Shown: positions 3,600 to 57,780 of the stretch, piece after piece | Layout: each line of letters starts with the position of its first letter | Numbering within the stretch: position 1 is the stretch's first letter | Source of the DNA: a virus | Direction: 5' to 3' (one strand) | IMG/VR virus record: IMGVR_UViG_3300043437_000207 | Coordinates: 1-61,225 of that record | Length of the DNA stretch: 61,225 nucleotides | Translations under genes and position numbers: made by a program | The notes under the pieces: generated by a model | Databases searched by the model: none | Seen by the model: the letters and a program-made list of their open reading frames with translations, nothing else | What the model was told of the DNA's origin: nothing

Positions 3600-3606
3600 A
3601 ACAAAG

Positions 3607-3677: not shown

Positions 3678-3680
3678 ATT

Positions 3681-28400: not shown

Positions 28401-31400
28401 GACAAGATCATTATGATGAGTTGATTAATAATTCTATGACAGCTATTCAAAGAAATACACTTCTTGAAGAATTAGCTGAAAAAGGAATTTATGTTGACTT
28501 AGAAGAGTTTGCTGAATGGTGCCAAGATAATTCTAAGTTGCCTACATACTTTGTTGATCAAGTAAACAAAAGAATTATCAATAAAGACAGTTACATCTAT
28601 GATAAGTATATTGAGTATTTTGATCTAGCTAAAAATGCTGAAACAACTAATGCTCCTAGACCAAAAAGTACAGAAGAGCAGAAACTTGAAAGAACAATTG
28701 ATAATTATAACAATCAAAGAGAAGGTGAATTAGAAACTGTCAAAAATCAATATGACCAAAGCTTAAAAGATCTATTGGGTTATACTCAAGAAGAGATTGA
28801 TGAGATGCGTGATAAAGCTATGTTTGATGCTGACATGACACCGGAGGAAGCAGCTGAGGAATTAGAACTTGTCAAAAAAGCAATTAAACAATTAGATTCT
28901 GATAATCATCTTGAGATAGAAGCAGTATTTGATCTTGCTACAGAAAATGACATGTTTACTCCACAAGAGTATAACATGGCCAAAGAAGATTTGTTTAGTG
29001 ATGAAGATTCTGTAAATGAAATGGCTGACTTAGCTGAAAAGTTTACTGATGCTGAAGAAGAAGAAGCTATGGAAGCTGCTTCTAATGTATTAATTCTTAA
29101 ACCATTACTAGAAAAAAGAATAGAAGTTCTTCAATCATTTGTAGATGGAACAGCAATGGAGGGGATTCCTAACTATGAGGAAACACAACCCTATAAGGAT
29201 TACACAGAAGCGGTAGATGAAATCAATACTAAGTATGATGGTCTTATAGATGATGCTAGAGCAGAATTTGATAAGGCAGTTAAGGAAGGTGTTGAGTCCA
29301 CTAGACCTGAAGCAATGAAGAAATCCATCCAGGAAGTACAAGAGTTATTTGCTGGAAAAGAAGATATTGTTCAGACTAAAAGAAACTACATTATAGATGG
29401 TGAGGTACATGAAAGAATGTCAAACAGAATTAAAGCTGGTCATGACACTTATGGATACACTGGAGAAAAAGATCTTATGGATCTTTATGATGAGACTATT
29501 GGTGCAGCGCTTGCTGAGGATAGAGAATTAGACCAAGATTTGATTAATGAGTTCATAGAAGCTTTAGTAGCTGCTGACTTACCTGGTGTAAACACAAATA
29601 CTTTTACTGCAGATGTAGTAAGAGATGAGTTAGAAACATTAATTAAAACAGATGGCACTAAGTCTAAAAAGATTCAGAGATATATTTCTAAACTAAAATC
29701 TCAGTTAAGTGATATTGAAAATAAATTAGCTTCAGTAAAAGATAAAGACCGTCTTGCAAGCTTGCAGAAACAGAAAGTAGAATTAGAACAAGCTATTAAA
29801 GATGAAGAGGCTGGTAAGTTTGATGAGCCATTTGAAATGACATCAGACAATATTAAGTCTTTTATCTTAAATACTGTTAAGGAAAATGCATATGAAGAAT
29901 CTAGAGATGCGGGTAACATAATTGACCCTATGCTTAAAGATTATCTTGATACAGCAACTTCTGTAAAACCTAAGTGGGATCCTAAGAAGATGAGCAAAGA
30001 AGCATATGACGCTTTGTTTGATGATGAAACAGGTTACCTTACTGAGCTTAAAAGAAGAGCTGATGCTGGTGAGATCTATATTTTTACCAAAAATCTTATT
30101 GTACATGCTAATGATTTAGTAGATGCTGATGGTAAAAAACTTCCACCGGTAGCTGGTGAAATTGATATGATCATTGTTGACCGTAAAGGAAACAAATTTA
30201 TTGTAGATTTAAAAACAGGTAAAGTAAGAAAATGGTTTAACTATAAAACTATAGGAACTGATTCATTTAAGAAACAGTTAGAAAATACTTTACAACAAGT
30301 GGGATATGCAAATCTTGCAGAAGACATGTCTGGTCAACAATTTGGAGTTAAAATTTTACCTATTGAGATTGGCTTTGATAGTAAAGGTTATATTGTATCT
30401 GCAGGTAAACCAACTAATCCATCTATGTTTACGGGTGAAGAAGTTGTTGGAGATGAAGGCAGTGAAGCTTACACAATAGGATTAGATCCTACAAATATGA
30501 TTCAGGTTAAGAAAGAAGGAACCAATGTTTATGAAAACATAAGTATTGAAGATTTCATGCAAAAACTTATTCCTGTAAGAAGAGTGCCAGGTAGTAAAAG
30601 ACCAAAGCTTACTGTTAAAAAAGAAGTTTCAATCCCTGAAGAAGAAAGAGAGTTTGTTGATGACTTTATGAACAAACTTGCCAATGCTGGTCAGGCAAAA
30701 CCAAGCGGTAAATCATCAACTGCCCCTATAAGGAAAGCAGTAGTAACAATAGAAGATGCCATAGGTAAAACAGTATATTATAATGGTAAGCCTTACACAG
30801 TAAATAAAGAGGGTGTAAGATATGTACTTGAGTCAGAATCTACTGTTATTGAATTAGATACTACAGCTTCAGAAAATTTAAGTGATCTTGGTATTGACTA
30901 CTTTGAAGGAGAGTTCTATACACCTAAGTATGATGTTACAATCAATAGTGAAAATTCTGTTACTGTTGATGGTACTACATATGAGATTAGAGTAAATGAG
31001 TCAGGTAATGTAATTGGTTTAAGTCCGGAAAATAAACCAGAACAAGTTATTAAAAATGAAAGATTACTTGTTGCTGTTGAAATTGAAAGAAATAAAACTG
31101 ATTTCATAACTGAAGTTGAGGAACTAGAAGATGTTGATTATGCAGAAACAATGGATAATCTAAAAGCTAATGATCCTGCAGCTCATCAAAAACTTGAACT
31201 TCTTGAAGGAGTATACAATAAAAACTGGAATGAAACTGTTGAATCTGGTTTAAGTAAACTCTATAGTAAACAAGAACTAAATGATTCAGAAAGACTAGCT
31301 GTAGATTTATGGGTGACAGATGCTATAATTAGCATGACTAAATTATACACTAGACAGTCAGATGAAATTTATGCTAAAGGATTAGATAATCTTGAAATTA

Positions 31401-32293
31401 TTAATACACTTTTATATGAAGGATACAATGAACAATTTACAGAAGTTGGTGCTAATGAGCCTGCCAAAAGAACAGTTAAACAAACTGAAAGTCAAAAACA
31501 AAGAAAGCCAGGTAAAAATGTCACAGAAACAAACACCAGTGAAACAGTAAAAGAAACTGTTTCAGATAAAGAATACAAAGATTTTGTAGATAATGGTGTT
31601 GTTAAGAAAAGCAGAATAAAAAGTATTGCCGTAAATATACAAAAAGGTAATACTTTATCTCAAAGAGAGATGGCAATTTTTTCTGATAAAACATCTGAGA
31701 TCAATGATATGATTATTCAGATGACAGAAAATAAAAATGTAGAAGATTCCATTAAGGAAGATACATTTGATCAGATTCTTGAATTGTATGCTGAACTTGA
31801 TAAGGCTAAACCTAAATTGAGTGAAGAATCATACAATATGCTTAAGGAACAACTTGATGCCCGCGCCTCATTATTGTTTGATGAAACAGGAAATATAGTT
31901 TTAAAAACCGGAGAAATTTATATCTTTACAGCACCGGTAAAAGATGAACAAGTTGCTCAAGGATATAGAGTTAAAATAGATAGTTTTGACCCTATGGCTA
32001 AAACAGTTACTGTATCTAATGTTGGTCCTGGTAATAATAAAACTTTTACTATGAGTATCAAAGACTTTAATGATAGTGCAATGAGTGAAGAATTAATAAA
32101 CAATATGCCTAAAGAAGATGAACCATATGTTCCTTCTGAAGAAGAATTAGATCACTTAACAGAAAGTATGGCTGTTACAGATGGTCAGTTATCTGATTTT
32201 GAACAACTTGCCAAATGGGAAGATGAAGCATCAGCAGATACAATATCACTTGATGATTTAAAAAATGATTTCTTTAATAATTTTAAATGCTAA
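25478..32293 (+). CDS. Giant internal virion protein with glycine-zipper membrane segment and PD-(D/E)XK nuclease domain (2271 aa)
   Basis: 2271 residues. Residues ~218-275 are Gly/Ala-rich and hydrophobic (ESVVEGALIGAAVGAVGG and onward), a glycine-zipper pattern able to insert into membranes. Long acidic helical regions follow. Around residues 1540-1610 is a RecB/Cas4-type PD-(D/E)XK nuclease core: E1561-I-D1563, then D1577-L-K1579-T-G, with the downstream helix QLENTLQQVGYANLAED. The order is 1048-aa protein, this protein, RNA polymerase, with gaps of 5 and 4 bases. An ejected protein that helps the genome cross the host envelope and carries a nuclease for host DNA or end processing would fit, but neither activity is proven. 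The acidic, repeat-poor C-terminus has no known domain. Confidence 0.7.
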   Translation: MAEETNVPDEGVKDLSQMSEFIAPAEIGVNLHKSMISPALDINKYNTKATISNPALRIKDTTKGSAPYHPKKITSPNSKEYGGLKGIMDDLRAELSQNVDKNAYSKIYAYDSSPKGAHKARYKGYGQETYDKIGFTPEIDNETWFNANTTMYDDWKRMATQAAWPMMKLGFMSPIHSYGKLFGQADIGQDLAEARDYEEYNAIGYSTKGGIGGFMINLQNSAAYSVGILAESVVEGALIGAAVGAVGGEGIGAAPGAVIGGVVEGFGALLKLPGTLFNMSKNLGKMTMNLKKFEKISEVRNLFGNAGKSMGNFVNPISNTSEAAMKYVFKNPDDLSNLARSARTVGALWHDVKNMNAALSEGRLEGGFTEQRVFDELYNKYYEKYGVAPSDELQKDMRKQAKVAGYQNTWKNTLLVHYSNNIAFPSIARAGFMKGLPTFSKTVGKVGPFQLVYDPAKKVASELAYSAEKVSLRNAVKAFTKPAAYGKTALNYFKANLVEGFQETAQDVLSDATENYYINSFKNKDRQNFEYSMATLNGAMKKQISAQGLETFASGFAMGSILGIPGGVKDFMSVGYNKYFKHRNNYDEYIQKRQDEVDTIVDALNTMDKGAKNFFDPRLTNYTTQMLAGKVADDPEGATTKEAKDTSFAAFQSAVRTSLRTGTFDMFLKNYEGYKQATPEELEQAWRLQPGQGQKALLNIDKSIANAKTIAARWQYTKNKFPHVVNPANFKDDTPEKEMAEVYNEAYLAGIDNLVFMGSAFDNNAERLDQMYSKLSSIPVIQNSRFSEIATITDPARLTKEIAMLRTEIELSKNAATPEAKEQYEKQKDLLDKLTSFQKEQSGVTVDFFKRIMNAQKTIMQTEGISANEAQVKAVDQVTKEFEDEGLHPFESYKTSFRDLLDTLAGSEENKANLGRQLDDAGGFDDIFEILADTHLLRDENMRLNKFINVLNSPQDFYEHVQRNFEWMKKLYNNRQDHYDELINNSMTAIQRNTLLEELAEKGIYVDLEEFAEWCQDNSKLPTYFVDQVNKRIINKDSYIYDKYIEYFDLAKNAETTNAPRPKSTEEQKLERTIDNYNNQREGELETVKNQYDQSLKDLLGYTQEEIDEMRDKAMFDADMTPEEAAEELELVKKAIKQLDSDNHLEIEAVFDLATENDMFTPQEYNMAKEDLFSDEDSVNEMADLAEKFTDAEEEEAMEAASNVLILKPLLEKRIEVLQSFVDGTAMEGIPNYEETQPYKDYTEAVDEINTKYDGLIDDARAEFDKAVKEGVESTRPEAMKKSIQEVQELFAGKEDIVQTKRNYIIDGEVHERMSNRIKAGHDTYGYTGEKDLMDLYDETIGAALAEDRELDQDLINEFIEALVAADLPGVNTNTFTADVVRDELETLIKTDGTKSKKIQRYISKLKSQLSDIENKLASVKDKDRLASLQKQKVELEQAIKDEEAGKFDEPFEMTSDNIKSFILNTVKENAYEESRDAGNIIDPMLKDYLDTATSVKPKWDPKKMSKEAYDALFDDETGYLTELKRRADAGEIYIFTKNLIVHANDLVDADGKKLPPVAGEIDMIIVDRKGNKFIVDLKTGKVRKWFNYKTIGTDSFKKQLENTLQQVGYANLAEDMSGQQFGVKILPIEIGFDSKGYIVSAGKPTNPSMFTGEEVVGDEGSEAYTIGLDPTNMIQVKKEGTNVYENISIEDFMQKLIPVRRVPGSKRPKLTVKKEVSIPEEEREFVDDFMNKLANAGQAKPSGKSSTAPIRKAVVTIEDAIGKTVYYNGKPYTVNKEGVRYVLESESTVIELDTTASENLSDLGIDYFEGEFYTPKYDVTINSENSVTVDGTTYEIRVNESGNVIGLSPENKPEQVIKNERLLVAVEIERNKTDFITEVEELEDVDYAETMDNLKANDPAAHQKLELLEGVYNKNWNETVESGLSKLYSKQELNDSERLAVDLWVTDAIISMTKLYTRQSDEIYAKGLDNLEIINTLLYEGYNEQFTEVGANEPAKRTVKQTESQKQRKPGKNVTETNTSETVKETVSDKEYKDFVDNGVVKKSRIKSIAVNIQKGNTLSQREMAIFSDKTSEINDMIIQMTENKNVEDSIKEDTFDQILELYAELDKAKPKLSEESYNMLKEQLDARASLLFDETGNIVLKTGEIYIFTAPVKDEQVAQGYRVKIDSFDPMAKTVTVSNVGPGNNKTFTMSIKDFNDSAMSEELINNMPKEDEPYVPSEEELDHLTESMAVTDGQLSDFEQLAKWEDEASADTISLDDLKNDFFNNFKC

Positions 32294-32297
32294 TTAG

Positions 32298-35200
32298 ATG
32301 ATCAGTTGTCCAATTACCCAGTTACCTCTTGAAAATTTTTACAAGTATGTATTCCGCGCTATTAAAGATAGACTAGGAAATGATAAAACCTTTGACGTAA
32401 ATGATTTCATGGAGAAGTTGTTTGAGGAATCGGTTAAAAAGGCTGATCCTGAAACTGCAGCTAAATGGTTGCAAAGTACTCCGCGTGTAATAAATTTAAT
32501 TATTACAAAATCATTTAGTGATAAGATTCCTTTAGTAAAAGGATTAGAAAATATTTACGGATTGATGGCTGATTTCTCAAAACCAAACGGTGAAGGATTT
32601 CAGAATGTACTTAAGAAATATATAAAACCTGTAGATACTAAAGATCTAAAAGGAGAGGCTGCGCATCAATTGTCACTTGAGTTTTCTGATGAAGAAGAAG
32701 AGGGTCCTGAAGATGAGAAAAAAGAAACAAACCCAAGAGTTGAGGCAAGACTTAAAACTCCTGTGGTTATGTCTGGTACACTTCAATCATTTGTTCCGGT
32801 AGATCCATCTAGAAAAACTGATACTTACTCAGAAAGACTTGATAAACCAAGAGCTCAAATCCTTACTAATCTTGCAATTCTAGGTGATGCATTAAGTATG
32901 CAAGATCCATTTGATGGAGAGTTTACATATCAAGGAAAGAAAGTAAAAGTTAAAGCAACAAACTTATATACATTTGCTCAACAGAATTTTAATGATTTAG
33001 ATCCTACAACTCAGCAAGAGATTAAGGATTCAAACTTTTATACTAGCACAGGAAGAAACAAAGAAGGTGTTACTCAAAGTGATAAAAGAGTAATACTTGT
33101 TATTACAGATGATGCTGGACAGAACTTATATTTTGATACAGAAGGAAACCTTACTACTAAAGGTAATGGAACTCTAGTGTATCAATTCATGAGAGATGTT
33201 AGACAAACCTCAAAAGGTTATACAGTAACAGATATCTATGGAAAAGAAGAACAGTTAATGCCAATTGAGACTTATGCCCAACTAACATATGATGAAAAAA
33301 TTGACGGAGACTATCCTACATATCTTGAGAAAGTAAAAGATGATAGAGAGAAAGAGCTTAAGAGATTGTTTCAAATAAGAGAAAGTGCATTAGGTAATGA
33401 CATGATGTTGGAATTCTCAGGTCTTAGTGCCGGAGTTACTTCAGATCTCACAGCTACCAAACTTCCCCTATCTGACTTTCTAAAGATACCAGGAGCAACA
33501 AAGAAAGACTTAAAGAGTATCCGTACTCTTAAAAAAGCAGAAGGTAACTTTGGAGAGGGTAGAGCTGTAATTAATTTAAATGGAACAGACTTCCAAGTAA
33601 ACAGATCATCTATGCCAGACAGTGTAGCTGACCAGATTGCTGCAGTTATGTTTGATCCTAATATTCCTTTTGAAACTAAAAAAGATTTCTATTCACAGTT
33701 TATTCCGGAAGATAGTACAACCAAGCTTGCTTATACTATGAGAAAGCATGAGATCATTCCTGATATGGTGAACCAATCATTTAGAATTAAGCTATATGAT
33801 AAAGTAGGTGACAAGTATGGATTTGTTACTGAGCCTATTTTTGATTTTGTTATTTCTAAAGCTGTATTAGATAAGGCTAGTAGAGAAAAATTAGATGCCG
33901 GTATTAAGACTTTTAGTGACACTCTCAAATCTGGTAGAGCTAATGGTAAAGCAACTTACATGTCATACAAATCTGACTTGTTGAATGATGAGGAGTATTT
34001 AGTATACAATTCAAATACAAAACAAATTGAAGTTGCAAACTACATTGATTTTTTATCCACACTTGATGGTTACGTTGATTTATTTGACGGAGATCCTGGT
34101 TTCTACAATAAGCACCTGTTGTTTAATGAAGAGAATAAAGTGGAAAAAGAAATTAAAATTGCTTCTGCGGCAGCATCACAAACATTTGAAGAGGCCCTTG
34201 AGGAATCAATTAAATTAGCAGAAGAAAGAAAAGCATTGGAAAATGCTGATAAATCTCCTATGGAAATTGAGGCACAAGTTATTGCTGATCGCGCTCTTTC
34301 TCCAGAGTTTAGAGCTCAGTTAGCTCAACAAGGAATGGAAGGAAAGTATGATACATACTATTATGCCGCAAGTCTTATTCAAGCTATCAATACTAATATT
34401 AGTCAAAGATATACCAGAGAAGCTGCTGAACAGTTGCGTGATATATTTGCCGGTGCAAGATACATAAACGGTAAACAAATTAATACAGTCACTGATATTA
34501 TCAATAGAGCATTTCCAAAAGCAGAAGGACCTCTTCAGAGAGAAGTTGAAATAATCCAAAAGACTGTTGAACCTGAAATGCCAGACCCAACAACAATAAA
34601 TCCTTCTCCTAAGAAAGGAAGCTTACGTTCTAGAGCACCTAAGAATGATAGCTTAAACCGTGAAGGATACATGGCTGATGAAATTGGTGAAGAAGATACA
34701 GCTAAAGTCCTTGACTGGTGGAACAATACGGCATTAGGAAAAGAGTTACAAAAACATATTGAACTACAACATGCATTTAATCTGGTTAACTCAGATGTAT
34801 TTGCGCGCTTTGTAGTTAGCGGTGCTACATTAGCTAATCCTGACATTAAAGGTAAGATTCAAATTAATAAAGGTGTAGGTACATTGGTTGATGTTTACCA
34901 TGAAGCATGGCATGGTTTCTCTCAATTGTTTCTTACCCGTCAAGAAAAATACAGTCTTTATGATGAAGTAATTAATTACAAAGATGCCAGCGGAAACCAA
35001 CCCTATAAGTCTATGGACTATAAGGCAGTTGATGAGTTACTAGCTGAAGACTTTAGAACTTATATGAAGAGCAATTACATTAAGAAAGGTTCTCCTATAA
35101 GAAATAAACTCTTCAGAAAGATTATGAATTTTATCAGAAGCTTGTTTGGTAAAAAAGCAATTAATCCAACTGAAGTTATCACAGATGTAATGAATGTTCC

Positions 35201-38200
35201 AGCTGTGAGAGAATTGTTTGAGAAATTAAACTATAGTTCTAATAAGAAATCATTTGTGAGATCATACAAAGCCAATATGGATAATGTTGACTTTATGATG
35301 TTGAACCGTGGTATTAGTAAATTAAATAGACCAAGTGATAGTGCCCTTAGTGATCAAGACTCTAGATTAGTTTCTGATACTATGGACATGATCATTTCTG
35401 ATTTTGTTGATGATTGGTACAGAGAAAGAGTTGAAGAAGCTGAAGAAACTGGTAACTATAATAGTTTAAAATCTGGAACTATTGGTTTACTTATTGATCC
35501 AGACCACCGTGCATTCATGTATGAGGTAATCAAAGAAAGATTACAAGATAAGTTGGATGAGTTTAAAGAAAAATTACATTCTCAAGAAGGTGTAACACCT
35601 TTTAGTGAAATTAAAGCTTTAGAATCTTCTGACCCTAATCAGAAAACAATTGAATCAGAAGCAGTAGCTGTATTAAGATCTAATAAAGGAGAAGACAAAT
35701 ATGTATTCCTTAAATCACAGATTGATGGTTTTGATAATCTTGATGCTAACATGCGTAGAGGTACCAGAGTTAGAGGTGAGTCTTGGCATGGTATCAAAAT
35801 AGTTGGTGACTTCTATTCACATAAATCTATTAAGAAAGGTAAGAAGCCGGTAGGGATAATTGTAGTTTCTAGTTTAGAGGATGCTCAAGTTCAGTTTGAT
35901 AATTATAAAGCTGGAGGAGCCGAAGAGTATACAGATTTTGAAGTTAAAGATGTTCCGGATTACATGTTGTCTGCAGAACAAGAATTTATGTTAGATAATG
36001 TTAGAATTCTACAAGCTGCTGTAGATAACTTTGGAGATCCACAATGGGATATTAAAGGTATTGAAGCTACTGGAACAATTGCATATCACTTAGAGAATTC
36101 AGATTTTGATTTATCTAAAAAGAAATATGAGCTTGATTTTGACATGTTAGATGAGAATGGTGATGAGATTGATGAAGATCAAGAAAATGAAACTCATGAT
36201 TCTGAAACACCATTTGGTAGTTCAGCGGGTACTAAAAAATCTTTGATGCAATTAGCTGATAAAGAAGTAATCTACATTCTTAAAAGTTTGTATAAAGTAG
36301 ACCGTAATGGTAATGTTGCATACAATAGACTTGGTTTTAAAGAGCGCGCAGATTTCAAGAAAGTTTGGAACATTGTTACTAAAGCAATTGGTGGTATAAG
36401 AGATAGAGAAAAAGCATATGAGACATTAATGGCAGAAGCAGAAAACTTTCCAGAAATAGCTCAGCTTATTGAAACTAAATTCCCAGATCCAAGATTGATT
36501 ACTAATACATTTGAAATAGATGTGAGTAATTCATTCTGGCAAACATTTGCAAAACCTTCAGTTAAATACTGGCAATTCACTGTGTTCCCACAATATGAGC
36601 CGGGAACAAACTTCCTTACAGGGGAAACAGAAAATGTATTAAAAGGATTTGAAGCTGATGTTACTCAATCATCTATTGAAGTAGATAGCACTATTAGAAA
36701 ATTTGAATCAATTTTCAAAAGTAGTATAGCAAATGATTACATAGAAAAGAATTCAGATAACCAATCTACTTTAAAACTGGATGACGTAATTACTGCATTT
36801 GAGAATAAGAAATATCCTGGTCAGTTAGATACATCTAAAGCATTTGAGTTTGCTGCAGCATTAGGTATGAAGCTTGATGCTTTACCAGTTATCAAAAAAA
36901 ATATAGAAGATAGAGCAGAGTATTTTGGGTTACCATATATCTATGATATTATAAAAGACTTTGCAGGTATTCAGAAATCAAATAAAAGCACTGAACAACA
37001 ACTTGAATACTTAAACAAATTTGTTAGTAATCCAATAGGGACACTAAGAGGTGAGATTCCAAAAGGAATACTAAAAAGCTTTAAGAAAGAAGTAGCAGAA
37101 AAGAATATCCTTAAAAGAATTGCTGAGTTACAATCTCAGTATGGATATGATTCTGCTAATCCAGGTATCTTGCTACCGGACGGTAACAGAGTATTTGAAA
37201 ATGTAAATCATAGTCAAGTTACAGTTACTGTAGATGCAATAAACAATGTTGAAAATCTTAGTGATTTCTGGAGCAAACCAGAGCTAGGTTATATGTCACA
37301 CTTGAGACCAGGTAAATCATTCTTTACTTTAAGATCTAAAATTTTTGGAGCTATGTTTGACACTGCTCAAGGAACCTTTGATAGAAAAGGAACCAGATCT
37401 TTAGAGCTTTTACAAACTGCAGGTACACAGATAGCAGAGATGGAAGGAGTGAATACATCTGACTTAGATAAGTTAGGTAAATTCTTTCAAGAGTTTCATA
37501 CTATGAGCTTAAATGGTATAGCAGAGTTTATCCGCCATGCTGAAAAGAAATCTGCATATGGTATCAAGTTACTGGGTGGTAAAATGAAAGTTATTGTCAA
37601 TGGTATTACAAATGGTGTTGATCAAAACTTATACATTGATATCAGTAAGTTTGTAACTAAACCAAATGAACAAATTAGTGATGGAGAAATAGTTGCTGTA
37701 GGTGGTTATTTCCTTGACTATATTGCTGCAGAATTTGATAGAATTAGATACTTTAAACAAAATCCACAGGATCTTAAAAATATCAAAGGTTACAACAGAG
37801 AGATTAAAGATAAGAATGATAAATTAATTGGTAGAGCTGGAGAATTCTTTACTGCTTTTGATAACATCTTGAGAGATCAAACCAAAAAAGATTTATATGC
37901 TTTGGCATCTGATCCTTTGGTAGATTTACCTACCCATATCAGAAATAACCAAGGACTTTATTTAAAAATTCAACAAGACATTGCTGATTATTTCACTGAG
38001 AAAACAGAAGCAATGTATAATGATTACTTTAAAGATCTGCCTTATGTAGACAATAAGGTTTATGAGAAAGCTGGTATAGAAACTAAAGGTGATATATCTG
38101 ATGAATCAAAGAAAGCTGTTCTTAAATCTTATTTGTTTAATGACTGGATACATAAATTTGAAATGTTTAACATTTTCAATGGTGACCTTTCTCAGTTCAA

Positions 38201-41200
38201 TCATGACAAACAACAAGCAAGTAAACGTGCACCTGGTTCTACATCAGATGGTGATGGATTTGTCAATGATAAGTACATGCATGAATTCATTAACAAAGTG
38301 TTCAACAAGAATACTTATGCTAAAAAACTTGCTAAAGAAACAGGTCTTGACTTAGATAAGTTTGTTATGAATGGTACATTGAATACCGGTGTCATAGCAG
38401 ATGCAGAAAGAAAGTCTGTATATCTAGATGAAATGTTAGAAAGCTGGAAAGAGCAATATACAGCTGCCCTAACCCCTTTATACACAGATAAAGCTGCATT
38501 AAAGAAAGAAATAGATAGAAGACTTGCAAAAGATGCTAAGGCCTATAAGAAGATGACAGAATCTGATGGTGCAGCCTTTATGACATTTGATGCATACCGT
38601 ACACTTAAAAAACAAGGTAAAAGCTGGACCATTCCGCAAGAAACATTATACCAACAGATTGTTGCCGGAGAACAAGTTGATCCTTTAAAAGTAAAAGAGT
38701 TCTTTCCAATTTACAAACTTCATTACTATGGATCAATTGCTAATGCTCCTATAGCAACAACAGGAATGCATAAGTTTGCAGTAGCTCCTATTATTCCAAC
38801 TATTGCAGTAAAAGGTACAGAGCTTTATAATTTACATGTAAAAATGATGAAGGAAAATCTTCAGTATGTAGCATTTGGTTCTGGTTCTAAAGTTGCCACA
38901 CTTACTATGACTGGAGACTTTGATAACATCTTTGGTGATGAAACACAGAAAACAGTTTCTGCAGATGCACCAATTAGAAAAAATGTTATCTACTTGGAGT
39001 ATCTTAAGGATGTAACTAAAGTTGCAAGCAAACTTAAGAAAGAAATTAGCTATCCTACTCAGAAACGTGTATTATTATTAGATGGTCTCTTCAATGTTGG
39101 AGATGTAATTAACAAAGCAAATGCTGAAATAGCTAATAACTACAAAGCTAATGTTAAGGATTACACTGAAACATTAGCTCTGGATTTATTAAACAAGATA
39201 GGTTATGAATATGATCCTAAGACAGAAAAGTATGTTGGAAAGTTAGATAAGTTTATTGAACTTATCAGAGATGAATTAGGAGCTAAAGAAGTTCCTGAGC
39301 ATTTGATTAAACTTCTGGATACTACACTTAGTGATCAGCTATCTATGGACTTTTCTATTCACCCAGAGGCTGACATGCTTGAGAAAGTTATTGTAAATAG
39401 AATTCAAAAAAGTATAATAAAACAGAAGACAAAGGGAGAATCTATGGTTCAAGCTCCATCCACGTTCTATAACGGTGTGTGGGACAGTGCCTACCAAAGA
39501 GATGAAGCTATTAAAAATAATGATGAATTAATCAGAAAATATCTGGGTTCTAACAACTTACCTTTTTATACTAGAGGTAAATTAAATAAAGATGGTACAA
39601 GACAACCAACTTCAGCTATGAAAGTTGCAATACCTATGAATGGTGACTTTTTGAACATTCTTAATTTAAAACATCCTGATGGAGAACTTATTGGAACTAC
39701 AGACCGTCTTAATGAGTTAATTAAAAATGATGAGTGGTTAGATAAGAACAGAGAGCTTATCACTATTGTAGGACCAAGGATCCCAACAGATGCTGCTAAC
39801 TCTATGGAATTTGCTGAAGTATGGCACTTCCTTGATGCTAGTGCAGGTAACACAGTAATTGTACCAACTGAGATTGTTGCAAAAGCTGGATCTGACTTTG
39901 ACGTTGATAAGATTTTCTTCATGCTACCAAATATAAATTCTGATGGTACTTTAACTAAGGCACCTGCAGAAAATTTGGAACAGCTTACCAAGATGGTAAA
40001 AGAATCTAATAGTGTTAGCAAAAAAGTAAGAAAAGAAAAAGGGTTACCAAATCCTCAAGCTTTAATTGATCAGTACAAAAAAGCTGCACAAAATAAATTA
40101 ATCAAAAACACGCGGGACATTCTCTCCTTACCGGACAACTATGCAAGTTTAACAAAACCTAATAATACATATCTTGTAGAAGATGAAGTTGAATTCTATG
40201 ACAAGTATTCTAGAGGGTATAACAACAAAAAGAATGCACATGGTGAGTCTGTAAGGATAAATGGTGACAAAGAAGTAATGAGTCCATCAAGATCATTAGA
40301 TAATGATTACAACTTAAGTCAGCATGAAGCAATGTTATCTGGTAATATGCCGCTTGGTATTATGGCCAAGAAAAACAAAGTGCATGCATTATTCAAAAGT
40401 GTAGGAGCTATTATGCCGTTATCATACAATGCCACTGTGTGGAATGATGAAACTAAAAAGTATGATGAAATTCCTGCTCAGTATGATGTTGTAATCCGTA
40501 TGAGACATAATAAAACTATGTTTAATGAAAATATTTCTTTATCTAATCAGAATAATGTAGATGGTGAAAAGATTGGAGATATTTTTTCTCATGGTCTTCA
40601 AGGTTTGCTTGACCGTGCTAATAATCCTTTTCCATTTAAATTACAAATTGTAAAAGAGGCATTGGGTACAATCAATCACCTTATTGAAGCTGGAGTAAGT
40701 GTACCAGAAGTATTTGCTTTTATCAATAACCCTTGGATTGTAGATTACATTCAGAAACAAATGTACTATGGAGGCTCAATGGCTAAGCTTCAAGAAGCAC
40801 CTGTTCCTAGTCATCAAGTAAAATCTACAGCCTTTAGGGAGACTGTGGCTTCTCTTGTTTCTGCAGGTGGTGAAGAAATGAAGAAAATAGTTAAGCAGGT
40901 GGCAAACTATGCAAATGACCGCAGAATGATGGACATAGCTGATATGCTAAAACAAAAGGATCAAGATAAAGTTTACATCATTAAAACAAAAGATGCAGAA
41001 GGAGAAGAAGTTCTAAAAAAAGCTACTGGAAAAAGAATATTTCATAGTAATGACTTTCCAGTAGATCAAATTATTGAGTTAAAAGAATTTGAAGAAAATA
41101 CAGACTATGATAGTTTAAAAACTTTATTCAAAAGATCCGGTGGTATTGCTAATAATGATAACTTCTATTATGCATCAGAGGCTTTATGGAATAGAGCATT

Positions 41201-44078
41201 CCCAGGATCTTCTACAGTTTCTAAAGATAGATTACAATCTTTAGTAATGGGAGGGCATAATCCTAGTATAGAAAACTTGGCTATTTTAATGCACATGCTG
41301 CAGTTAGAAAAACAATTTAAGGGAATGGATGAATTGGAAATGGCATTTAGTCCAGACACAGGTTTAATGGATACTACTCTTCAGATTAAGAAGAGGGATG
41401 ATGCATTTAAACTATTTGATGAAACATCTAAAATTGATTCTGATTTCTTAAAAAGACTAAGAAATAATTCTATTCTTTCTTCATTCTATAAGAGTGGTTT
41501 GATTATGGATCTTGTAGTTCCATTATTTCCATTGAGACTTAATGAAACTATCTCAAAGTTTGTTGAGAAAAAGATAGACCAAACTAGAGATATGATTGTT
41601 CAAAAGTTTGGGCCTGGGGTAAAAGGAAAAGAAAGATTTATTAACATGTACAACAATGCAGTAGTAAATTACATTTTTCAGAATACCAAGTCTAACTCTC
41701 TTGATAATGATGGAAACGCAGTTACCCTACCGGAATCAGTTCACAGCTTACCAATTAAAGAAGTAACAACAGGTCCTGCAGTATCATTTACAGATAAGGA
41801 TGTAAAAGTTAATTTAGAACAAGCTAGAAAAGATTTTGATGCTAGGATATTCTTGAGTTCAAATAATACTCCTGAAGGTAACAGAGCTAAAAACTTAGAT
41901 ACATTTGATGCTGGAGAAAATCCTTTCCCAACATTTCCAACTTATCTTAAGTTTGCAATAGAGAAAGAATATTTAACTACTGTTTACACTAAAGAATCTT
42001 TAGCTAAGAATAAAGACTTTCTTAAGCTTTCTTTCCAAGCAGGCTCAGAAGATTTGGGTTATGATAAATACATTACTCAAACAGCATTGATGAACAGTTA
42101 TAACCGTGCATTTATTATGGGTACTACTAAGTATTCATATACTACAATGGTTATGGATATAATTAATGAGTTTGAAGACCAAAACATCAAAGATAACTTT
42201 CCTGTACTAGCTCAATTGGCTCCAGCTAAATTTACAAAAGATGTAAATGTTTTAGAGTTGAATGATAAAGCTACAGCTAAAGGAACTGTTGCTGATGATT
42301 ATTATAAAAATCTTAGACAACTAGCAGATTATACTGTAAGAAAAGTGGTAAACTCCAATAAGGAAGTTCAGAAAATGGATAATAATAGAATCAGTGATGT
42401 TTTCAAAAACTTTTCTATGTTTATGTATTATCAACATGGAACTGGTTATTCTAAATTAGGGTTTGTTAAAGTCTTGGATCCGGAGAAGTTTACTAAAATT
42501 ATGCAAAATGCTGCAAACTCTTTCTTGAATAATGATTTGTCAGAAGAAACATTAGAAAGAATCTATAACAGATTGAATGCAAAGTCTCAGTTTAAAAACT
42601 ACATGATTGACCCAAGTAATTTAAATGAAGAAGAATCTGTAGAAGATTTCTTAAGTACTTTTTCTGAAGATGACTTTGGAGATATGTCTGACTTCTTAGA
42701 ACAAGGTCCTACTCAACCAGCTATTAATGTTGATGAGTTTGATGTAGCAGATAAATTAACACCTATAGAACAAAACTTTGCAGATGGTCAAGGTGGTAGA
42801 CAAATGCAACCACAATTTAAAGGTAAGTCTACTATGGATCTTATTATATCAGGAGATAGAACTAGAACTACTAGAGCTAATACTGACATACAAAGAATGG
42901 CTAAGGATTATAACTTATCTAAAATATCAGATCTTGTAGGTAAACTTATAAGAATGACTGATAAAACAGGAAGACAAGTATATACTAGAATTACTAAAGT
43001 TACTCCATTTACACAAGAATATCAAGATGCCACATGGCAAAAAGAAGGTTGGGTAAAATCTGTAACAGATAAACATGTTGGTAATTATCCATATGCTATA
43101 GAGTTTGAAGTAGTAAATAAACCTACTCAACTATCCACTCAAAATCAACCTACAGAAGGTATTCCAAAAGGTCAAGAAGTTGTACCAGGTGTCTATGTTA
43201 ATCAAGGAGCTTTGACTCAAGATGAACAAATGGAGTTATTTGATTATTTAAAACCATATCTTGAAGAACAAGCTGCTAAAACTAATAAAGGTCAGAATGC
43301 AAGTAAAATGATCGGTCTTGGTTTAAGATGGGATTATAAAAGCAATAATGTTGGAAGAGCTGCTATCAATATTCCTGATGTAATTAATCCAGGTAATAAA
43401 ACTAAGTATGGTTATTATAATGTGTCTATCAATGATCAACCTCTTGGACAGATTACACCAAGATTTAAAGAGCTTATGCAAAAAGCTACAGGAGTTGACA
43501 TGACAAATTATGATGGAGCTATTATTAATCTTTATGAAAATGACTCATTTATTTCTTCACATAATGATGTTGATGAAAGTAAATCCGCTATACAATATCC
43601 TGTAATTGGAATTAATATTGGTGGTAAAGGTAATTTCTCAATTGAAAGAATACCTGGAGCAGGTGAGTTGAGTTTAGAAGCTGGAACAGGTTATGTGTTT
43701 GGAGTTGATGGTGTAAATAGAGAAGTATGGCATAGAACATTCCCTACTAAACAAGATACATTCTTACCTGAACTTACTACTAGAATTGATGGTAAAACAT
43801 ATCCAGCTGGATCTTATAGGGTGACTATTACTATGAGAAGGGTAGAACCACTTCTTCCGGAGATGCCAATAGTACCTGCTATTAATGCTGAACAGTTACC
43901 AGTGGAAACAGTAGCTGCGGGCAGTACAGTTATAATTAGTGAATTTTATAATGATCTTACTGAAGAACACAAAAAAATATTAGGTAACTTAGAGGACTTA
44001 ATAGCTGAGTATGATGAAATACCATTTGACTATTCAGAAGAAAAATATATTGAAAGTTTAAAATGTAAATTATCATGA
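32298..44078 (+). CDS. Giant virion RNA polymerase fused to zincin, ASCH-like and AlkB-like domains (3926 aa)
   Basis: 3926 residues. (1) H868-E-A-W-H872 with D912-E-L-L-A-E-D-F downstream is a zincin metallopeptidase signature. (2) The RNA polymerase active site: G2492-P-R-I-P-T (compare the R-x-P-T element of bacterial beta') lies ~40 residues before A-G-S-D2533-F-D2535-V-D2537-K, the metal-binding loop of the double-psi beta-barrel. It resembles the DFDID loop reported for crAss-like phage phi14:2 polymerase. (3) Residues ~3500-3608 (FKGKSTMDLIISGDRTRTTR) look like an ASCH/PUA-type fold. (4) The C-terminal ~300 residues are AlkB-like: N-L-Y-x8-H3755-x-D3757, H3812, R3841-x5-R3847. The gene sits 4 bases after the nuclease giant and overlaps the next by 4. 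The polymerase is expected to be packaged and to transcribe early genes. Whether the chain is cleaved is unknown. Confidence 0.85.
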   Translation: MISCPITQLPLENFYKYVFRAIKDRLGNDKTFDVNDFMEKLFEESVKKADPETAAKWLQSTPRVINLIITKSFSDKIPLVKGLENIYGLMADFSKPNGEGFQNVLKKYIKPVDTKDLKGEAAHQLSLEFSDEEEEGPEDEKKETNPRVEARLKTPVVMSGTLQSFVPVDPSRKTDTYSERLDKPRAQILTNLAILGDALSMQDPFDGEFTYQGKKVKVKATNLYTFAQQNFNDLDPTTQQEIKDSNFYTSTGRNKEGVTQSDKRVILVITDDAGQNLYFDTEGNLTTKGNGTLVYQFMRDVRQTSKGYTVTDIYGKEEQLMPIETYAQLTYDEKIDGDYPTYLEKVKDDREKELKRLFQIRESALGNDMMLEFSGLSAGVTSDLTATKLPLSDFLKIPGATKKDLKSIRTLKKAEGNFGEGRAVINLNGTDFQVNRSSMPDSVADQIAAVMFDPNIPFETKKDFYSQFIPEDSTTKLAYTMRKHEIIPDMVNQSFRIKLYDKVGDKYGFVTEPIFDFVISKAVLDKASREKLDAGIKTFSDTLKSGRANGKATYMSYKSDLLNDEEYLVYNSNTKQIEVANYIDFLSTLDGYVDLFDGDPGFYNKHLLFNEENKVEKEIKIASAAASQTFEEALEESIKLAEERKALENADKSPMEIEAQVIADRALSPEFRAQLAQQGMEGKYDTYYYAASLIQAINTNISQRYTREAAEQLRDIFAGARYINGKQINTVTDIINRAFPKAEGPLQREVEIIQKTVEPEMPDPTTINPSPKKGSLRSRAPKNDSLNREGYMADEIGEEDTAKVLDWWNNTALGKELQKHIELQHAFNLVNSDVFARFVVSGATLANPDIKGKIQINKGVGTLVDVYHEAWHGFSQLFLTRQEKYSLYDEVINYKDASGNQPYKSMDYKAVDELLAEDFRTYMKSNYIKKGSPIRNKLFRKIMNFIRSLFGKKAINPTEVITDVMNVPAVRELFEKLNYSSNKKSFVRSYKANMDNVDFMMLNRGISKLNRPSDSALSDQDSRLVSDTMDMIISDFVDDWYRERVEEAEETGNYNSLKSGTIGLLIDPDHRAFMYEVIKERLQDKLDEFKEKLHSQEGVTPFSEIKALESSDPNQKTIESEAVAVLRSNKGEDKYVFLKSQIDGFDNLDANMRRGTRVRGESWHGIKIVGDFYSHKSIKKGKKPVGIIVVSSLEDAQVQFDNYKAGGAEEYTDFEVKDVPDYMLSAEQEFMLDNVRILQAAVDNFGDPQWDIKGIEATGTIAYHLENSDFDLSKKKYELDFDMLDENGDEIDEDQENETHDSETPFGSSAGTKKSLMQLADKEVIYILKSLYKVDRNGNVAYNRLGFKERADFKKVWNIVTKAIGGIRDREKAYETLMAEAENFPEIAQLIETKFPDPRLITNTFEIDVSNSFWQTFAKPSVKYWQFTVFPQYEPGTNFLTGETENVLKGFEADVTQSSIEVDSTIRKFESIFKSSIANDYIEKNSDNQSTLKLDDVITAFENKKYPGQLDTSKAFEFAAALGMKLDALPVIKKNIEDRAEYFGLPYIYDIIKDFAGIQKSNKSTEQQLEYLNKFVSNPIGTLRGEIPKGILKSFKKEVAEKNILKRIAELQSQYGYDSANPGILLPDGNRVFENVNHSQVTVTVDAINNVENLSDFWSKPELGYMSHLRPGKSFFTLRSKIFGAMFDTAQGTFDRKGTRSLELLQTAGTQIAEMEGVNTSDLDKLGKFFQEFHTMSLNGIAEFIRHAEKKSAYGIKLLGGKMKVIVNGITNGVDQNLYIDISKFVTKPNEQISDGEIVAVGGYFLDYIAAEFDRIRYFKQNPQDLKNIKGYNREIKDKNDKLIGRAGEFFTAFDNILRDQTKKDLYALASDPLVDLPTHIRNNQGLYLKIQQDIADYFTEKTEAMYNDYFKDLPYVDNKVYEKAGIETKGDISDESKKAVLKSYLFNDWIHKFEMFNIFNGDLSQFNHDKQQASKRAPGSTSDGDGFVNDKYMHEFINKVFNKNTYAKKLAKETGLDLDKFVMNGTLNTGVIADAERKSVYLDEMLESWKEQYTAALTPLYTDKAALKKEIDRRLAKDAKAYKKMTESDGAAFMTFDAYRTLKKQGKSWTIPQETLYQQIVAGEQVDPLKVKEFFPIYKLHYYGSIANAPIATTGMHKFAVAPIIPTIAVKGTELYNLHVKMMKENLQYVAFGSGSKVATLTMTGDFDNIFGDETQKTVSADAPIRKNVIYLEYLKDVTKVASKLKKEISYPTQKRVLLLDGLFNVGDVINKANAEIANNYKANVKDYTETLALDLLNKIGYEYDPKTEKYVGKLDKFIELIRDELGAKEVPEHLIKLLDTTLSDQLSMDFSIHPEADMLEKVIVNRIQKSIIKQKTKGESMVQAPSTFYNGVWDSAYQRDEAIKNNDELIRKYLGSNNLPFYTRGKLNKDGTRQPTSAMKVAIPMNGDFLNILNLKHPDGELIGTTDRLNELIKNDEWLDKNRELITIVGPRIPTDAANSMEFAEVWHFLDASAGNTVIVPTEIVAKAGSDFDVDKIFFMLPNINSDGTLTKAPAENLEQLTKMVKESNSVSKKVRKEKGLPNPQALIDQYKKAAQNKLIKNTRDILSLPDNYASLTKPNNTYLVEDEVEFYDKYSRGYNNKKNAHGESVRINGDKEVMSPSRSLDNDYNLSQHEAMLSGNMPLGIMAKKNKVHALFKSVGAIMPLSYNATVWNDETKKYDEIPAQYDVVIRMRHNKTMFNENISLSNQNNVDGEKIGDIFSHGLQGLLDRANNPFPFKLQIVKEALGTINHLIEAGVSVPEVFAFINNPWIVDYIQKQMYYGGSMAKLQEAPVPSHQVKSTAFRETVASLVSAGGEEMKKIVKQVANYANDRRMMDIADMLKQKDQDKVYIIKTKDAEGEEVLKKATGKRIFHSNDFPVDQIIELKEFEENTDYDSLKTLFKRSGGIANNDNFYYASEALWNRAFPGSSTVSKDRLQSLVMGGHNPSIENLAILMHMLQLEKQFKGMDELEMAFSPDTGLMDTTLQIKKRDDAFKLFDETSKIDSDFLKRLRNNSILSSFYKSGLIMDLVVPLFPLRLNETISKFVEKKIDQTRDMIVQKFGPGVKGKERFINMYNNAVVNYIFQNTKSNSLDNDGNAVTLPESVHSLPIKEVTTGPAVSFTDKDVKVNLEQARKDFDARIFLSSNNTPEGNRAKNLDTFDAGENPFPTFPTYLKFAIEKEYLTTVYTKESLAKNKDFLKLSFQAGSEDLGYDKYITQTALMNSYNRAFIMGTTKYSYTTMVMDIINEFEDQNIKDNFPVLAQLAPAKFTKDVNVLELNDKATAKGTVADDYYKNLRQLADYTVRKVVNSNKEVQKMDNNRISDVFKNFSMFMYYQHGTGYSKLGFVKVLDPEKFTKIMQNAANSFLNNDLSEETLERIYNRLNAKSQFKNYMIDPSNLNEEESVEDFLSTFSEDDFGDMSDFLEQGPTQPAINVDEFDVADKLTPIEQNFADGQGGRQMQPQFKGKSTMDLIISGDRTRTTRANTDIQRMAKDYNLSKISDLVGKLIRMTDKTGRQVYTRITKVTPFTQEYQDATWQKEGWVKSVTDKHVGNYPYAIEFEVVNKPTQLSTQNQPTEGIPKGQEVVPGVYVNQGALTQDEQMELFDYLKPYLEEQAAKTNKGQNASKMIGLGLRWDYKSNNVGRAAINIPDVINPGNKTKYGYYNVSINDQPLGQITPRFKELMQKATGVDMTNYDGAIINLYENDSFISSHNDVDESKSAIQYPVIGINIGGKGNFSIERIPGAGELSLEAGTGYVFGVDGVNREVWHRTFPTKQDTFLPELTTRIDGKTYPAGSYRVTITMRRVEPLLPEMPIVPAINAEQLPVETVAAGSTVIISEFYNDLTEEHKKILGNLEDLIAEYDEIPFDYSEEKYIESLKCKLS

Positions 44079-44998
44079 GTTGTATAAACAAAGCAGATAA
44101 AGGTTATAAGGCTTTGCAGAGTGTCTATGGTGACGCTCTGGCAGAGGCTTTTGTCCGTGGGTATCCTACAAATACTGGAAGGTCAGAAGACTCAACATTT
44201 GATATTCCTACTAAGCAAGAAGTTAAAGACTGGCTTACTGAGAAAAAGAAAAACATTCCTAGTTTTATTAAGAGAGCAATGGAGCTTAATCCATACATGT
44301 CAGAGACAGCACTTAAAAGTATGTTGAAAGGTGTTATAAGTAAATACCAAGATGCCTACTTTATTACCACTGGTTTTATAAATTCAAGGTTACCATCTAT
44401 AAATGTTGAAGCTTTAGAAATTATATATAAGCCAAACAAAAAGGTAATGCAAATGTTACAAGAGGCTTATCCTGATATTTTTAAATTGCGTGAAACAAGA
44501 GATCCAAACTCAATAATAGTAGAGATCACTCCTAGAGTTAAATCTGAGACTGATGATCTTTTTGAGGATATTGAAGAAGAGATGTCTAGTGCTGATGAAA
44601 TAGATTTGGAAGATAGTTTGCGCACCTATCAGTCTATAGTAGAGACAAATAGAGGACGTAAACCTGTAGAGTTTATGGCAGGCACTTTAAAATGGCAGTT
44701 AAACAAAAATGGTTTATACAATTTAGTAGATAAGTATAACAATGATGTTTACTTTAGAAACATGGATTTAGAAACTGGAGAAATGGTTCCAGAAGGAGAT
44801 CCTGGTGTGCCTCTTGATGAAGCAAAAAGAGATAGAATTTTCAGAGCAGTATTGCAAATGATTAAAGAACAAAGATTTGATGAGTATCTTGCTGTAAAAG
44901 GTATTGATACTGCAGATATCTATGAGTCTTTAAGAGATGCAAAAACTGATAAAGATTTAAATAAAGTTATAGAAACCTTATTGAAAGCAATATGTTAA
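44075..44998 (+). CDS. RNA polymerase-module virion protein candidate (307 aa)
   Basis: 307 residues. It overlaps the RNA polymerase gene (ATGA) and, by seven bases, the next gene, so the three are translated as a unit. The N-terminus MSCINKADKGYKALQSVYGDAL shares a plan with MLSCPRKTSREWQDVLARAHG of the following protein: Cys near residue 3-4, basic residues, an aromatic and a 'small-Gly-Asp/Asn' turn. The middle is acidic (DDLFEDIEEEMSSADEIDLED), and the remainder is charged helices. No catalytic motif was recognised. It may be an accessory to the polymerase or an ejected protein; position is the only support. Confidence 0.45.
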   Translation: MSCINKADKGYKALQSVYGDALAEAFVRGYPTNTGRSEDSTFDIPTKQEVKDWLTEKKKNIPSFIKRAMELNPYMSETALKSMLKGVISKYQDAYFITTGFINSRLPSINVEALEIIYKPNKKVMQMLQEAYPDIFKLRETRDPNSIIVEITPRVKSETDDLFEDIEEEMSSADEIDLEDSLRTYQSIVETNRGRKPVEFMAGTLKWQLNKNGLYNLVDKYNNDVYFRNMDLETGEMVPEGDPGVPLDEAKRDRIFRAVLQMIKEQRFDEYLAVKGIDTADIYESLRDAKTDKDLNKVIETLLKAIC

Positions 44999-47900: not shown

Positions 47901-48423
47901 AACATTTGGAGATACTATGATGTCTGATATTAGACAGTATAAATTCAATGTAATTAAAAACTGGTCAACATATACACCCTATCAGAAAGCACAAATAAGT
48001 AAAGTACTTGCTGAGTTAAGTATTATTATGGCTTTGTCTACTCTAGCATTTATACTGACCAATATATTAGTAGATCCAGATGATGATGAAAGAGAAGCAA
48101 TCCAAGATAATTATCTTTATAACTTCTTATTGTATGAGACACTCAGAATGAGATCTGAAACTGCATCATATATTAATCCTATTGATGCTGTCAGAGTATT
48201 AAGATCTCCATCAGCTATGACAAGTACATTTGATAGAATAATTAAATTTGGAAATCAGGTTATGCCTTGGAACATTACTGAAGAGTATGAACGCAAGACA
48301 GGTATATGGGAAAAAGGAGATAACAAAGCTTGGGCAGCATTCTTAAAATTAATGGGATTCTCTGGATACAATACTAATCCGGAACAAGCATGGAAATCAT
48401 TTGAATCAACATTCTTTAAATAA
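44992..48423 (+). CDS. Large internal virion protein with C-terminal membrane helix (1143 aa)
   Basis: 1143 residues. The N-terminus (LSCPRKTSREWQDVLARAHGNEDEAMRIW) resembles N-terminal modules of polyvalent phage proteins that enter the host with DNA. The centre is long, charged and helical (KVKKKVVTEAIPLMAEYLVEY). Residues ~1011-1027 form a hydrophobic segment (IIMALSTLAFILTNILV) followed by DPDDDE, consistent with one membrane helix. The last 100 residues are aromatic and conserved-looking (GFSGYNTNPEQAWKSFESTF). It is the last giant of the module. A role in forming or anchoring an ejection conduit is inferred; no enzymatic motif is seen. Confidence 0.55.
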   Translation: MLSCPRKTSREWQDVLARAHGNEDEAMRIWIEEEYEFNPDLNVVVKEENYEDERQGVPGQEELENDDFSGLVQRIKVYINKQIEILNSKKIANVKYKQSKLKELLTAVETMDGVASIGMFVKDAYDKAKQVEIRFGKLLANKKNMTSKEIMIELTGINDFANSYSILDEIDSADMMDYFTTGAGVEDTYGPMTPQKMLTDAIKIRDKVKKKVVTEAIPLMAEYLVEYKSTLQDKTIPEAIARLQQEIKDIEANTKMSDKTKASEIKKKQDSLKLWEGFDVDQGSMEKILKMANRDEGVLDFLLSPLITSSDSAMALFAKSVKSQLEFARQKDIKVRDRLVDAFQKYRKTAPASSDNTAKFNEGIYDEVEIPIYDKDGSISGSRKEVQFVQKFDMSKFNKVKREFFEKLGPLPQKVGEKATKEEAAKIKAWWEARNKWYIDNTQARPKEERDKIILQMQKDRDNKIISEDDYNKWQRKNVNEYKGVVNYFDDLATPSNKYKSDKWDAMYDSNDVAKNEKGRYHAELLKIYFEAQAKLPESQQKEFRVPSVSKSDLERIMQNGLKDFAKTNVSEAVKMQSWDTEFKLGSLSEEDVKFLPIYYTQKMDAKDVTLDFAMSVLVFSAMANKYEALNNINAETSLMKTIVGARKVPETNSKGQGILDAFAKKYGYEEYIRQNGESYSKKHLDAFIDMVIYGEMQKAEEIFGGLSLTKITNTAMSYSAITTIAADLLKGVANNLQGNIQIMIEAVGGQFFNRKNLRRGKAFLAKNLPGILSDFGKPAPTSLAGKLVEKYDPMQGNFKDNYGKKVSMSMANKLFRTDTLFFNQHFGEYEIQVSTMFALFDSIKVLDKATGEEITLLQAYNTYGADEAHSKIKIAKTNSKGEAELDQDGKPLYVPFGETQRQDIQARLHGLNKYMHGVYNDFDKGTIQKHSLGRLALMWRKHVAPGYKRRFKRVSMDHEIGTPTEGYYRTFGDTMMSDIRQYKFNVIKNWSTYTPYQKAQISKVLAELSIIMALSTLAFILTNILVDPDDDEREAIQDNYLYNFLLYETLRMRSETASYINPIDAVRVLRSPSAMTSTFDRIIKFGNQVMPWNITEEYERKTGIWEKGDNKAWAAFLKLMGFSGYNTNPEQAWKSFESTFFK

Positions 48424-48430
48424 AATAACA

Positions 48431-48571: not shown

Positions 48572-48579
48572 TTAGACAG

Positions 48580-48606
48580 AAAAAAAAGGGGACCATTACA
48601 GTCCCC
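48580..48606 (-). terminator. Rho-independent terminator of the minus-strand block at the convergence point
   Basis: Read on the minus strand, GGGGAC (48606-48601) pairs with GTCCCC (48593-48588) around TGTAATG, followed by eight Ts (48587-48580). The TAA of the 117-aa gene (48598-48596) falls inside the loop. The T-run favours minus-strand termination. The plus-strand side has only a weak T-tract. Confidence 0.75.
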
Positions 48607-49128: not shown

Positions 49129-49131
49129 ACT

Positions 49132-49515: not shown

Positions 49516-49518
49516 GCT

Positions 49519-57769: not shown

Positions 57770-57780
57770 CTTTTTTCTTT

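Follow-up and report, generated by a model that had tools for sequence, protein, structure and literature searches.

The giant gene and its surroundings

We analyzed a virus contig of 61,225 bases, referred to here as the window, which probably represents an incomplete genome. On its plus strand, a single uninterrupted frame of 3926 codons runs from an ATG at 32298 to a stop at 44078 and, judging from the open frame and its motifs, encodes a virion-type RNA polymerase (RNAP) polyprotein of 3926 residues. An earlier note on this DNA had described one continuous 3926-residue frame and placed a series of catalytic motifs within it. The frame is borne out, and all of the positions are exact: HEAWH at residues 868–872, RIPT at 2494–2497, DFDVDK at 2533–2538, HND at 3755–3757, H3812, and R3841-x5-R3847.

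Immediately upstream in the same block, positions 25478–32293 (+) encode a 2271-residue protein that synteny suggests is also an RNAP-block protein. Within this gene, about 160 bp (31557–31726) are missing from the closely related locus L017, and the flanks are 99% identical. On the other side, positions 44075–44998 (+) encode a 307-residue protein, the C-terminal domain of which is fused onto the giant ORF in the relatives L003, L006, and L010. Several proteins of the giant block (25478–32293, 32298–44078, 44075–44998, and 44992–48423) display an M(I/L/S)SC start and a terminal or near-terminal cysteine (FKC, KCKLS, LKAIC). It is possible that these starts and ends are shared packaging or ejection signals.

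The tail region contains a crassvirus hallmark, a muzzle-type tail protein (5955–11330, +). Its best annotated match is the "Muzzle protein" of csAssE-Sib, and it also matches virion proteins of Cellulophaga phage phi4:1. The muzzle homologue and the RNAP block follow the Crassvirales order in the window, while terL, portal, and major capsid protein genes were not identified within it. A muzzle-like protein matching 82% of that of the window, with a downstream block of giant genes, is also found in the cyanobacterial Leptolyngbya phage Lbo-JY46 (L047/L211). When the RNAP-block sequences of phi4:1, csAssE-Sib, and Lbo-JY46 were scanned, neither the polymerase HMM nor any module HMM gave a match, although the muzzles do match. 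A GIY-YIG-type homing endonuclease (21688–22323; PHROG 314, 9.5e-35) lies amid the virion genes. The GC skew changes sign near 48 kb, coinciding with the turn of the genes to the minus strand. On that strand (56579–59088), an AAA ATPase adjoins a DUF2201 VWA/metallopeptidase-like protein, forming a MoxR/VWA-like pair.

Domains of the polyprotein

The catalytic core of the polymerase spans 37845–40847 (+), with RIPT at 39777–39788 and DFDVDK at 39894–39911. A profile built from 23 family members reached a single PDB entry, 6VR4, the RNAP of Cellulophaga phage phi14:2, with E 1.6e-67 and both conserved halves aligned; a phmmer search of the whole protein against the PDB gave no match, so that 6VR4 is reached by the family profile only. 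The R-I-P residues and the D/D/D/K of DxDxDK are invariant across the 23 divergent members. Together, these results bear out the multisubunit-type RNAP active site claimed earlier, and for the placement of the DFDVDK loop in a double-psi beta-barrel, the evidence is the homology to 6VR4, not a newly built model. A tblastn search with residues 1601–3100 returned 86 phage records, nearly all crAss-like and including phi14:2 gp66, whereas a full Pfam scan of the 3926-residue protein revealed no N4-like or T7-like single-subunit polymerase domains. By homology, the polymerase is of the crAss-like, single-chain double-psi type and not of the N4 type. It has a core homologous to that of phi14:2 gp66 and the same catalytic motifs, and both occupy the same position in a giant-protein block that follows the tail genes. 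The two differ in extent: gp66 has about 2180 residues and no detected cargo modules, whereas the 3926-residue protein also carries a zincin-like region and exchangeable cargo. The median length of complete family ORFs is 3737 residues (n = 47).

The zincin-like metallopeptidase region occupies 34635–35327 (+), with HEAWH at 34899–34913 (residues 868–872) and a downstream glutamate, E913. Fifteen members share H868, E869, H872, and E913 without exception, and all 47 complete family ORFs contain the motif region. The motif part of the zincin claim therefore stands. The fold part does not gain similar support, as the AF2 model is poor (pLDDT 51) and the PDB profile search returned no match. We therefore regard this conserved HExxH region as a putative, metallopeptidase-like domain. 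A second zincin-like motif (HEFMHH) occurs near the C-terminus of L008. Neither the fusion of a zincin within the RNAP block nor the giant size is new for crAss-like phages: the fusion is already annotated in public records, and large multidomain transcription-block proteins have been described (PMC7886860).

Toward the C-terminus lies an AlkB-type 2OG-Fe(II) dioxygenase module (43164–43844, +; residues ~3623–3849). The C-terminal AlkB-like dioxygenase proposed in the earlier note is confirmed by Pfam (PF13532, 2OG-FeII_Oxy_2; E 3.9e-12, residues 3631–3847), by PDB profiles (OsALKBH1, 2.5e-10; E. coli AlkB, 4e-9), and by structure prediction. An AF2 model of 42750–43923 has a pLDDT of 85, and a Foldseek search matches it to the AlkB of E. 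coli (E 3.9e-11, TMt 0.73). At the level of the overall fold, this agrees with a double-stranded beta-helix carrying the HxD/H/R residues. The identity to E. coli AlkB and OsALKBH1 is only ~18%, and the present AlkB is embedded in a virion-type polyprotein, but the fold, the Fe-binding HxD...H, and the second arginine of R-x5-R are common to all three. H3755, D3757, and H3812 are kept in 26 of 26 nonredundant relatives, and the second arginine is kept in all 24 relatives that cover the site. The first arginine, which we take to be 2OG-binding in E. coli AlkB, is replaced by threonine in 7 of these 24, which form a second AlkB clade. This clade (L017 and others) is found in the same arrays, and its activity may differ because of the replacement. 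The dN/dS of the AlkB module, 0.08–0.17 (about 0.1), indicates purifying selection. No match to the module was found in INPHARED phages, and scanning 84,980 bacterial and archaeal genomes for its pattern, a method sensitive to close relatives only, found none. So far, this AlkB lineage has been seen in these polyproteins only.

Directly N-terminal of AlkB is a conserved module of ~120 residues (42756–43115, +), contained in a block conserved at the nucleotide level (about 42709–43138) at 20+ loci. An ASCH/PUA-like region had been suggested here. Pfam, NCBIfam, PDB profiles, and a six-frame PF04266 search gave no ASCH match. In hhalign, only the ASCH-like motif aligned to E. coli YqfB, with low probability. 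Several features of the module are compatible with ASCH, namely an I-x-x-G-x-x-T-x-T-x-R motif, E-G-W and I-E-F elements, and the order of helices and strands; the lysine of the YqfB G-R-K-T-I-T motif, presumably catalytic, is an arginine in the local alignment with the module. ASCH is a plausible name, which we use only as a label. Of the 21 loci to which this module by itself led, one belongs to the window's own species; in the remaining ones, the module lies in giant RNAP ORFs, mostly of 23–38% identity.

Exchange of the cargo modules

The two modules lie in a hypervariable C-terminal cargo bay (residues ~3475–3880), and a comparison with near-identical genomes reveals that its content is exchanged. 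The DNA of L017 and L018 is 98.8% identical to the window over 31726–42722 (11.0 kb) and 98.0% identical over 43940–49551 (5.6 kb, L017). Between these junctions (42723–43939, +), everything is different in L017 and L018, which come from two separate metagenomes: they encode a NADAR module (Pfam, 4.6e-13), a SLOG/cpYpsA-like module, and an AlkB that is only ~30% identical. The conserved C-terminal tail (43908–44072, +; ...GNLEDLI..Y...YIESLKCKLS) is retained in both despite the new cargo. The pair L147/L141 is 99.9% identical over 12.8 kb as far as the junction, after which the cargo differs, and with L144/L055, L003/L057, L172/L177, and L153/L174 there are five such cases beyond the window and L017. 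AlkB and the ASCH-like module are two among about ten interchangeable cargo modules and are not stable features of this polymerase. This exchange of whole domains inside an otherwise near-constant gene is the unusual property of the system; the polymerase and the polyvalent kind of protein are themselves known.

The same modules recur in highly divergent polymerases. Our module census comprised 207 loci in 139 nonredundant groups. The ASCH-like module lies inside RNAP ORFs in 25 of 25 cases, AlkB in 32 of 33, and NADAR in 29 of 35, mostly C-terminal of the polymerase and sometimes N-terminal. The relatives combine AlkB, ASCH-like, NADAR, SLOG-like, A1S_2505/macro-like, ART, and DUF4326-like modules in various ways. 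The names of NADAR (Pfam, 4.6e-13), A1S_2505 (NCBIfam, 2.2e-34), and ART-PolyVal (1.3e-5) are supported by profiles, that of NADAR strongly; cpYpsA is matched in 7 of 27 members (best 1.1e-3) and DUF4326 in 4 of 17 (best 1.4e-4), which is weak or partial support. The names of a kinase-like and a second SLOG-like module are our own provisional labels. In an unbiased RNAP scan, a recognizable module was present in 25 of 58 nonredundant ORFs, and the cargo of the remaining ORFs may be unrecognized or absent.

The edges of the AlkB module are the same at the nucleotide level in many divergent polyproteins. In L003 and L005–L013, they fall at about window positions 43164 and 43844 with a DNA identity of 74–86%, and most of the corresponding polymerases are only 25–45% identical in protein. 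Across 26 viruses (325 pairs), AlkB and RNAP identities have a Spearman coefficient of −0.20, i.e., no positive correlation. An AlkB identity of at least 65% accompanies an RNAP identity of at most 40% in 80 of the 325 pairs, the extreme being L077/L005 (94% versus 26%). In L008 (residues 2870–3640) and L084, both giant RNAP ORFs, a PIF1/RecD-like helicase follows the cargo.

The modules are separated by linkers with a characteristic motif. The pattern [TS]QP[TSA] occurs 22.2 times per 1000 residues between modules versus 0.03 in the polymerase core. T-Q-P is spelled ACTCAACC in 86% of cases, against ~35% predicted from core codon usage, and its codons depart from the gene's own usage (ACT 87% versus 49%, CAA 97% versus 71%). 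In the DNA, ACTCAACC reaches 0.343 per kb in the arrays versus 0.016 per kb in the core. Its sole plus-strand copy in the window (42711–42718) encodes the T-Q-P of the linker GPTQPA and lies four bases short of the last position common to the window and L017. Several other swap junctions are also at or near ACTCAACC. We propose that cargo swapping proceeds by recombination at these short linker homologies. No site-specific recombinase was found in the phage. An exonuclease VIII-like PD-(D/E)XK nuclease (54236–55252, −; PHROG 412, 2.3e-23; Pfam PDDEXK_1, 4.2e-9) is a plausible candidate for the recombination enzyme and may take part in the swapping.

The linkers could instead be flexible spacers or cleavage sites of the zincin, with the exchange due to ordinary illegitimate or homologous recombination followed by selection for the reading frame. 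We give this explanation somewhat less than an even chance. Thr/Pro-rich linkers are, as is generally known, common spacers, no complete family ORF lacks a zincin, and the survival of whole domains requires junctions within linkers in any case. A spacer function alone does not predict the synonymous bias in T-Q-P beyond the usage of the gene, but this bias could still arise because the linkers share descent with the modules.

A more far-reaching version of the linker proposal would make the cargo bay a dedicated exchange site, with the ACTCAACC/T-Q-P linkers acting as a DNA-level joint for short-homology or programmed recombination. Phages of the crAss-like and N4-like groups would then shuffle a shared pool of injected anti-defense modules onto unrelated virion polymerases, so that the payload varies while the polymerase stays constant. 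We regard this version as conceivable but unlikely.

Delivery, possible roles, and related systems

We consider the product of this ORF likely to be a polyvalent polyprotein, packaged in the virion, in which an RNAP and a zincin-like domain are joined to accessory-enzyme cargo, probably serving counter-defense or nucleic-acid repair, that is swapped by recombination at T-Q-P linkers. The RNAP proteins of PhicrAss001 are found in virions (PMC10172136), and the phi14:2 RNAP (gp66) and the syntenic giant block proteins of phi4:1 were detected in virions by MS/MS. For phi14:2 and PhicrAss001, a function of the RNAP in early transcription is known as well. Given these precedents, the polymerase and its cargo would enter the cell early. 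By homology to the phi14:2 and PhicrAss001 virion proteins, the polyprotein is probably packaged and injected.

According to this proposal, the polymerase and the attached cargo would enter the cell with the DNA, and the zincin-like domain may cut the polyprotein chain. After injection, the polymerase would start early transcription, and the cargo enzymes would act within the first minutes of infection. This phage would deliver an ASCH-like module and an AlkB-type dioxygenase, and its relatives would deliver others, many of them from NAD/ADP-ribose conflict chemistry. The modules would pass between phages as whole domains through recombination at the T-Q-P linkers (ACTCAACC in the DNA).

The cargo modules appear to be functional enzymes under purifying selection, for which dN/dS was measured for AlkB. 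AlkB would most likely remove alkyl or methyl groups from incoming phage DNA or early RNA; such a reaction has been shown on RNA in vitro for a plant-virus AlkB (PMC9249622). The module could serve to repair alkylated nucleic acid of the phage. A broader early counter-defense is at least as likely because most of the cargo types that occur alongside (NADAR, SLOG-like, macro-like, and ART) belong to NAD/ADP-ribose conflict chemistry. It is conceivable, though we consider it rather unlikely, that AlkB and the other cargo act mainly on soluble NAD/ADP-ribose-type immune signals or on host RNAs rather than in phage nucleic-acid repair. Most of the co-occurring modules (NADAR, 4.6e-13; ART-PolyVal, 1.3e-5; A1S_2505, 2.2e-34; SLOG-like) are indeed related to ADP-ribose, and phage Macro, NADAR, and SLOG domains have been argued to target soluble ADPr derivatives (PMC9503650). 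Conversely, nucleic acids are the substrates of characterized AlkB enzymes, and the structures closest to the present module are nucleic-acid demethylases.

AlkB and the ASCH-like module might also be integral, functionally required parts of the polymerase, e.g., processivity or RNA-binding accessories, as their presence in the same chain, the conserved active site, and the purifying selection would allow. This is very unlikely: unrelated modules take their place in genomes whose polymerase is almost the same, the two domains precede the zincin and the polymerase in the chain in L009, L034, L039, and L040, and other relatives lack them. The replacement in genomes that are 98–99% identical on both sides largely refutes AlkB as a fixed polymerase part and bears out the earlier note's view of it as a nonstandard component. 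Assembly chimeras have hardly any probability left and were rejected: although the clade is known from metagenomic contigs alone, the alternative cargo recurs in separately sampled metagenomes (L017 and L018; L051–L053 versus L055–L056), frames stay open across junctions that lie at linkers, modules with conserved edges recur in many contigs, and similar polymerase-module fusions exist in deposited complete genomes, cultured phages included.

Such fusions extend beyond the immediate relatives. In the Suoliviridae, the giant RNAPs cr109_1 and cr130_1 carry a fused SLOG-like module, and cr272_1 combines RNAP, NADAR, ASCH-like, and SLOG-like modules; these genes contain in-frame stops under the standard code. 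In the Steigviridae, an A1S_2505/macro-like module is C-terminal (residues 1891–2026) in the RNAP of the cultured Bacteroides phage Kolpuevirus "frurule" (L223) and N-terminal (residues 69–201) in that of cr112_1 (L225). As in the window, all five have the RNAP core and a SLOG, NADAR, ASCH-like, or A1S_2505-type module in one gene, but AlkB was not detected in these gut or wastewater phages. The N4-type vRNAP of Klebsiella phage Pylas (L217) contains a SLOG/cpYpsA-like module (residues ~987–1161 of a 3822-residue frame, 47% identity), and the corresponding HMM matches Pylas with 2.3e-61 and Alteromonas phage PT15-A5 (L221) with 5.5e-30. This module is also found in the crAss-like polyproteins, whereas the polymerase of Pylas and PT15-A5 is of the N4 type (Pfam N4_RNAP_helical and vRNAP domains). 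SLOG-like cargo is thus common to two unrelated virion polymerases, crAss-like and N4-type. Since the same arrangement exists in cultured phages ("frurule", Pylas), it can be tested.

Among the closest known systems are the polyvalent proteins (Iyer et al. 2017), a concept that was introduced for such an early role. In that paper (PMC5512222), an N4-like vRNAP is fused to MPTase and ART/lysozyme/PBECR domains. The likeness to the window protein consists of an RNAP, a zincin, and mixed enzymatic domains in one chain with predicted DNA co-injection, and the release of domains by the zincin is a hypothesis already published there. The N4-like RNAP described there is of the single-subunit type, whereas the window RNAP is of the unrelated crAss double-psi type. 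AlkB, NADAR, SLOG, and ASCH do not appear in that account, and the sections consulted describe no exchange of modules within a species. With disparate activities in one phage polypeptide and a zincin-like motif, the window protein is polyvalent in this sense. We found no description of such a crAss module array in the literature within our scope; subscription papers, e.g., the 2018 crAss family paper, lie outside that scope and may contain a prior mention.

If the proposed reading is correct, crAss-like phages, some of which are among the most abundant known, carry a fast-changing payload fused to an early-delivered protein, and the exchange of cargo perhaps keeps pace with bacterial defenses. 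The modules would then provide a direct list of candidate early counter-defense enzymes, the AlkB lineage included, and would suggest that ADP-ribosylation/NAD signaling and nucleic-acid methylation are host defenses that matter. The gene would also be a case of whole-domain exchange within a single gene with near-identical flanks.

Comparable combinations are known from RNA viruses. The polyproteins of blackberry virus Y and endive necrotic mosaic virus contain AlkB, apparently gained independently by recombination (PMC9249622), and Macro/NADAR domains occur in other RNA-virus polyproteins (PMC9503650). Here, too, AlkB or ADPr domains lie inside protease-containing polyproteins, but the viruses are unrelated and have RNA genomes, and the analogy is operational only. 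In a eukaryotic virus, the BFVD entry A0A481YQG8 of Pithovirus LCDPAC02 bears the name of a NADAR domain protein and also has a fold match to the AlkB model, so that the same two cargo types, NADAR and AlkB, are found in one protein.
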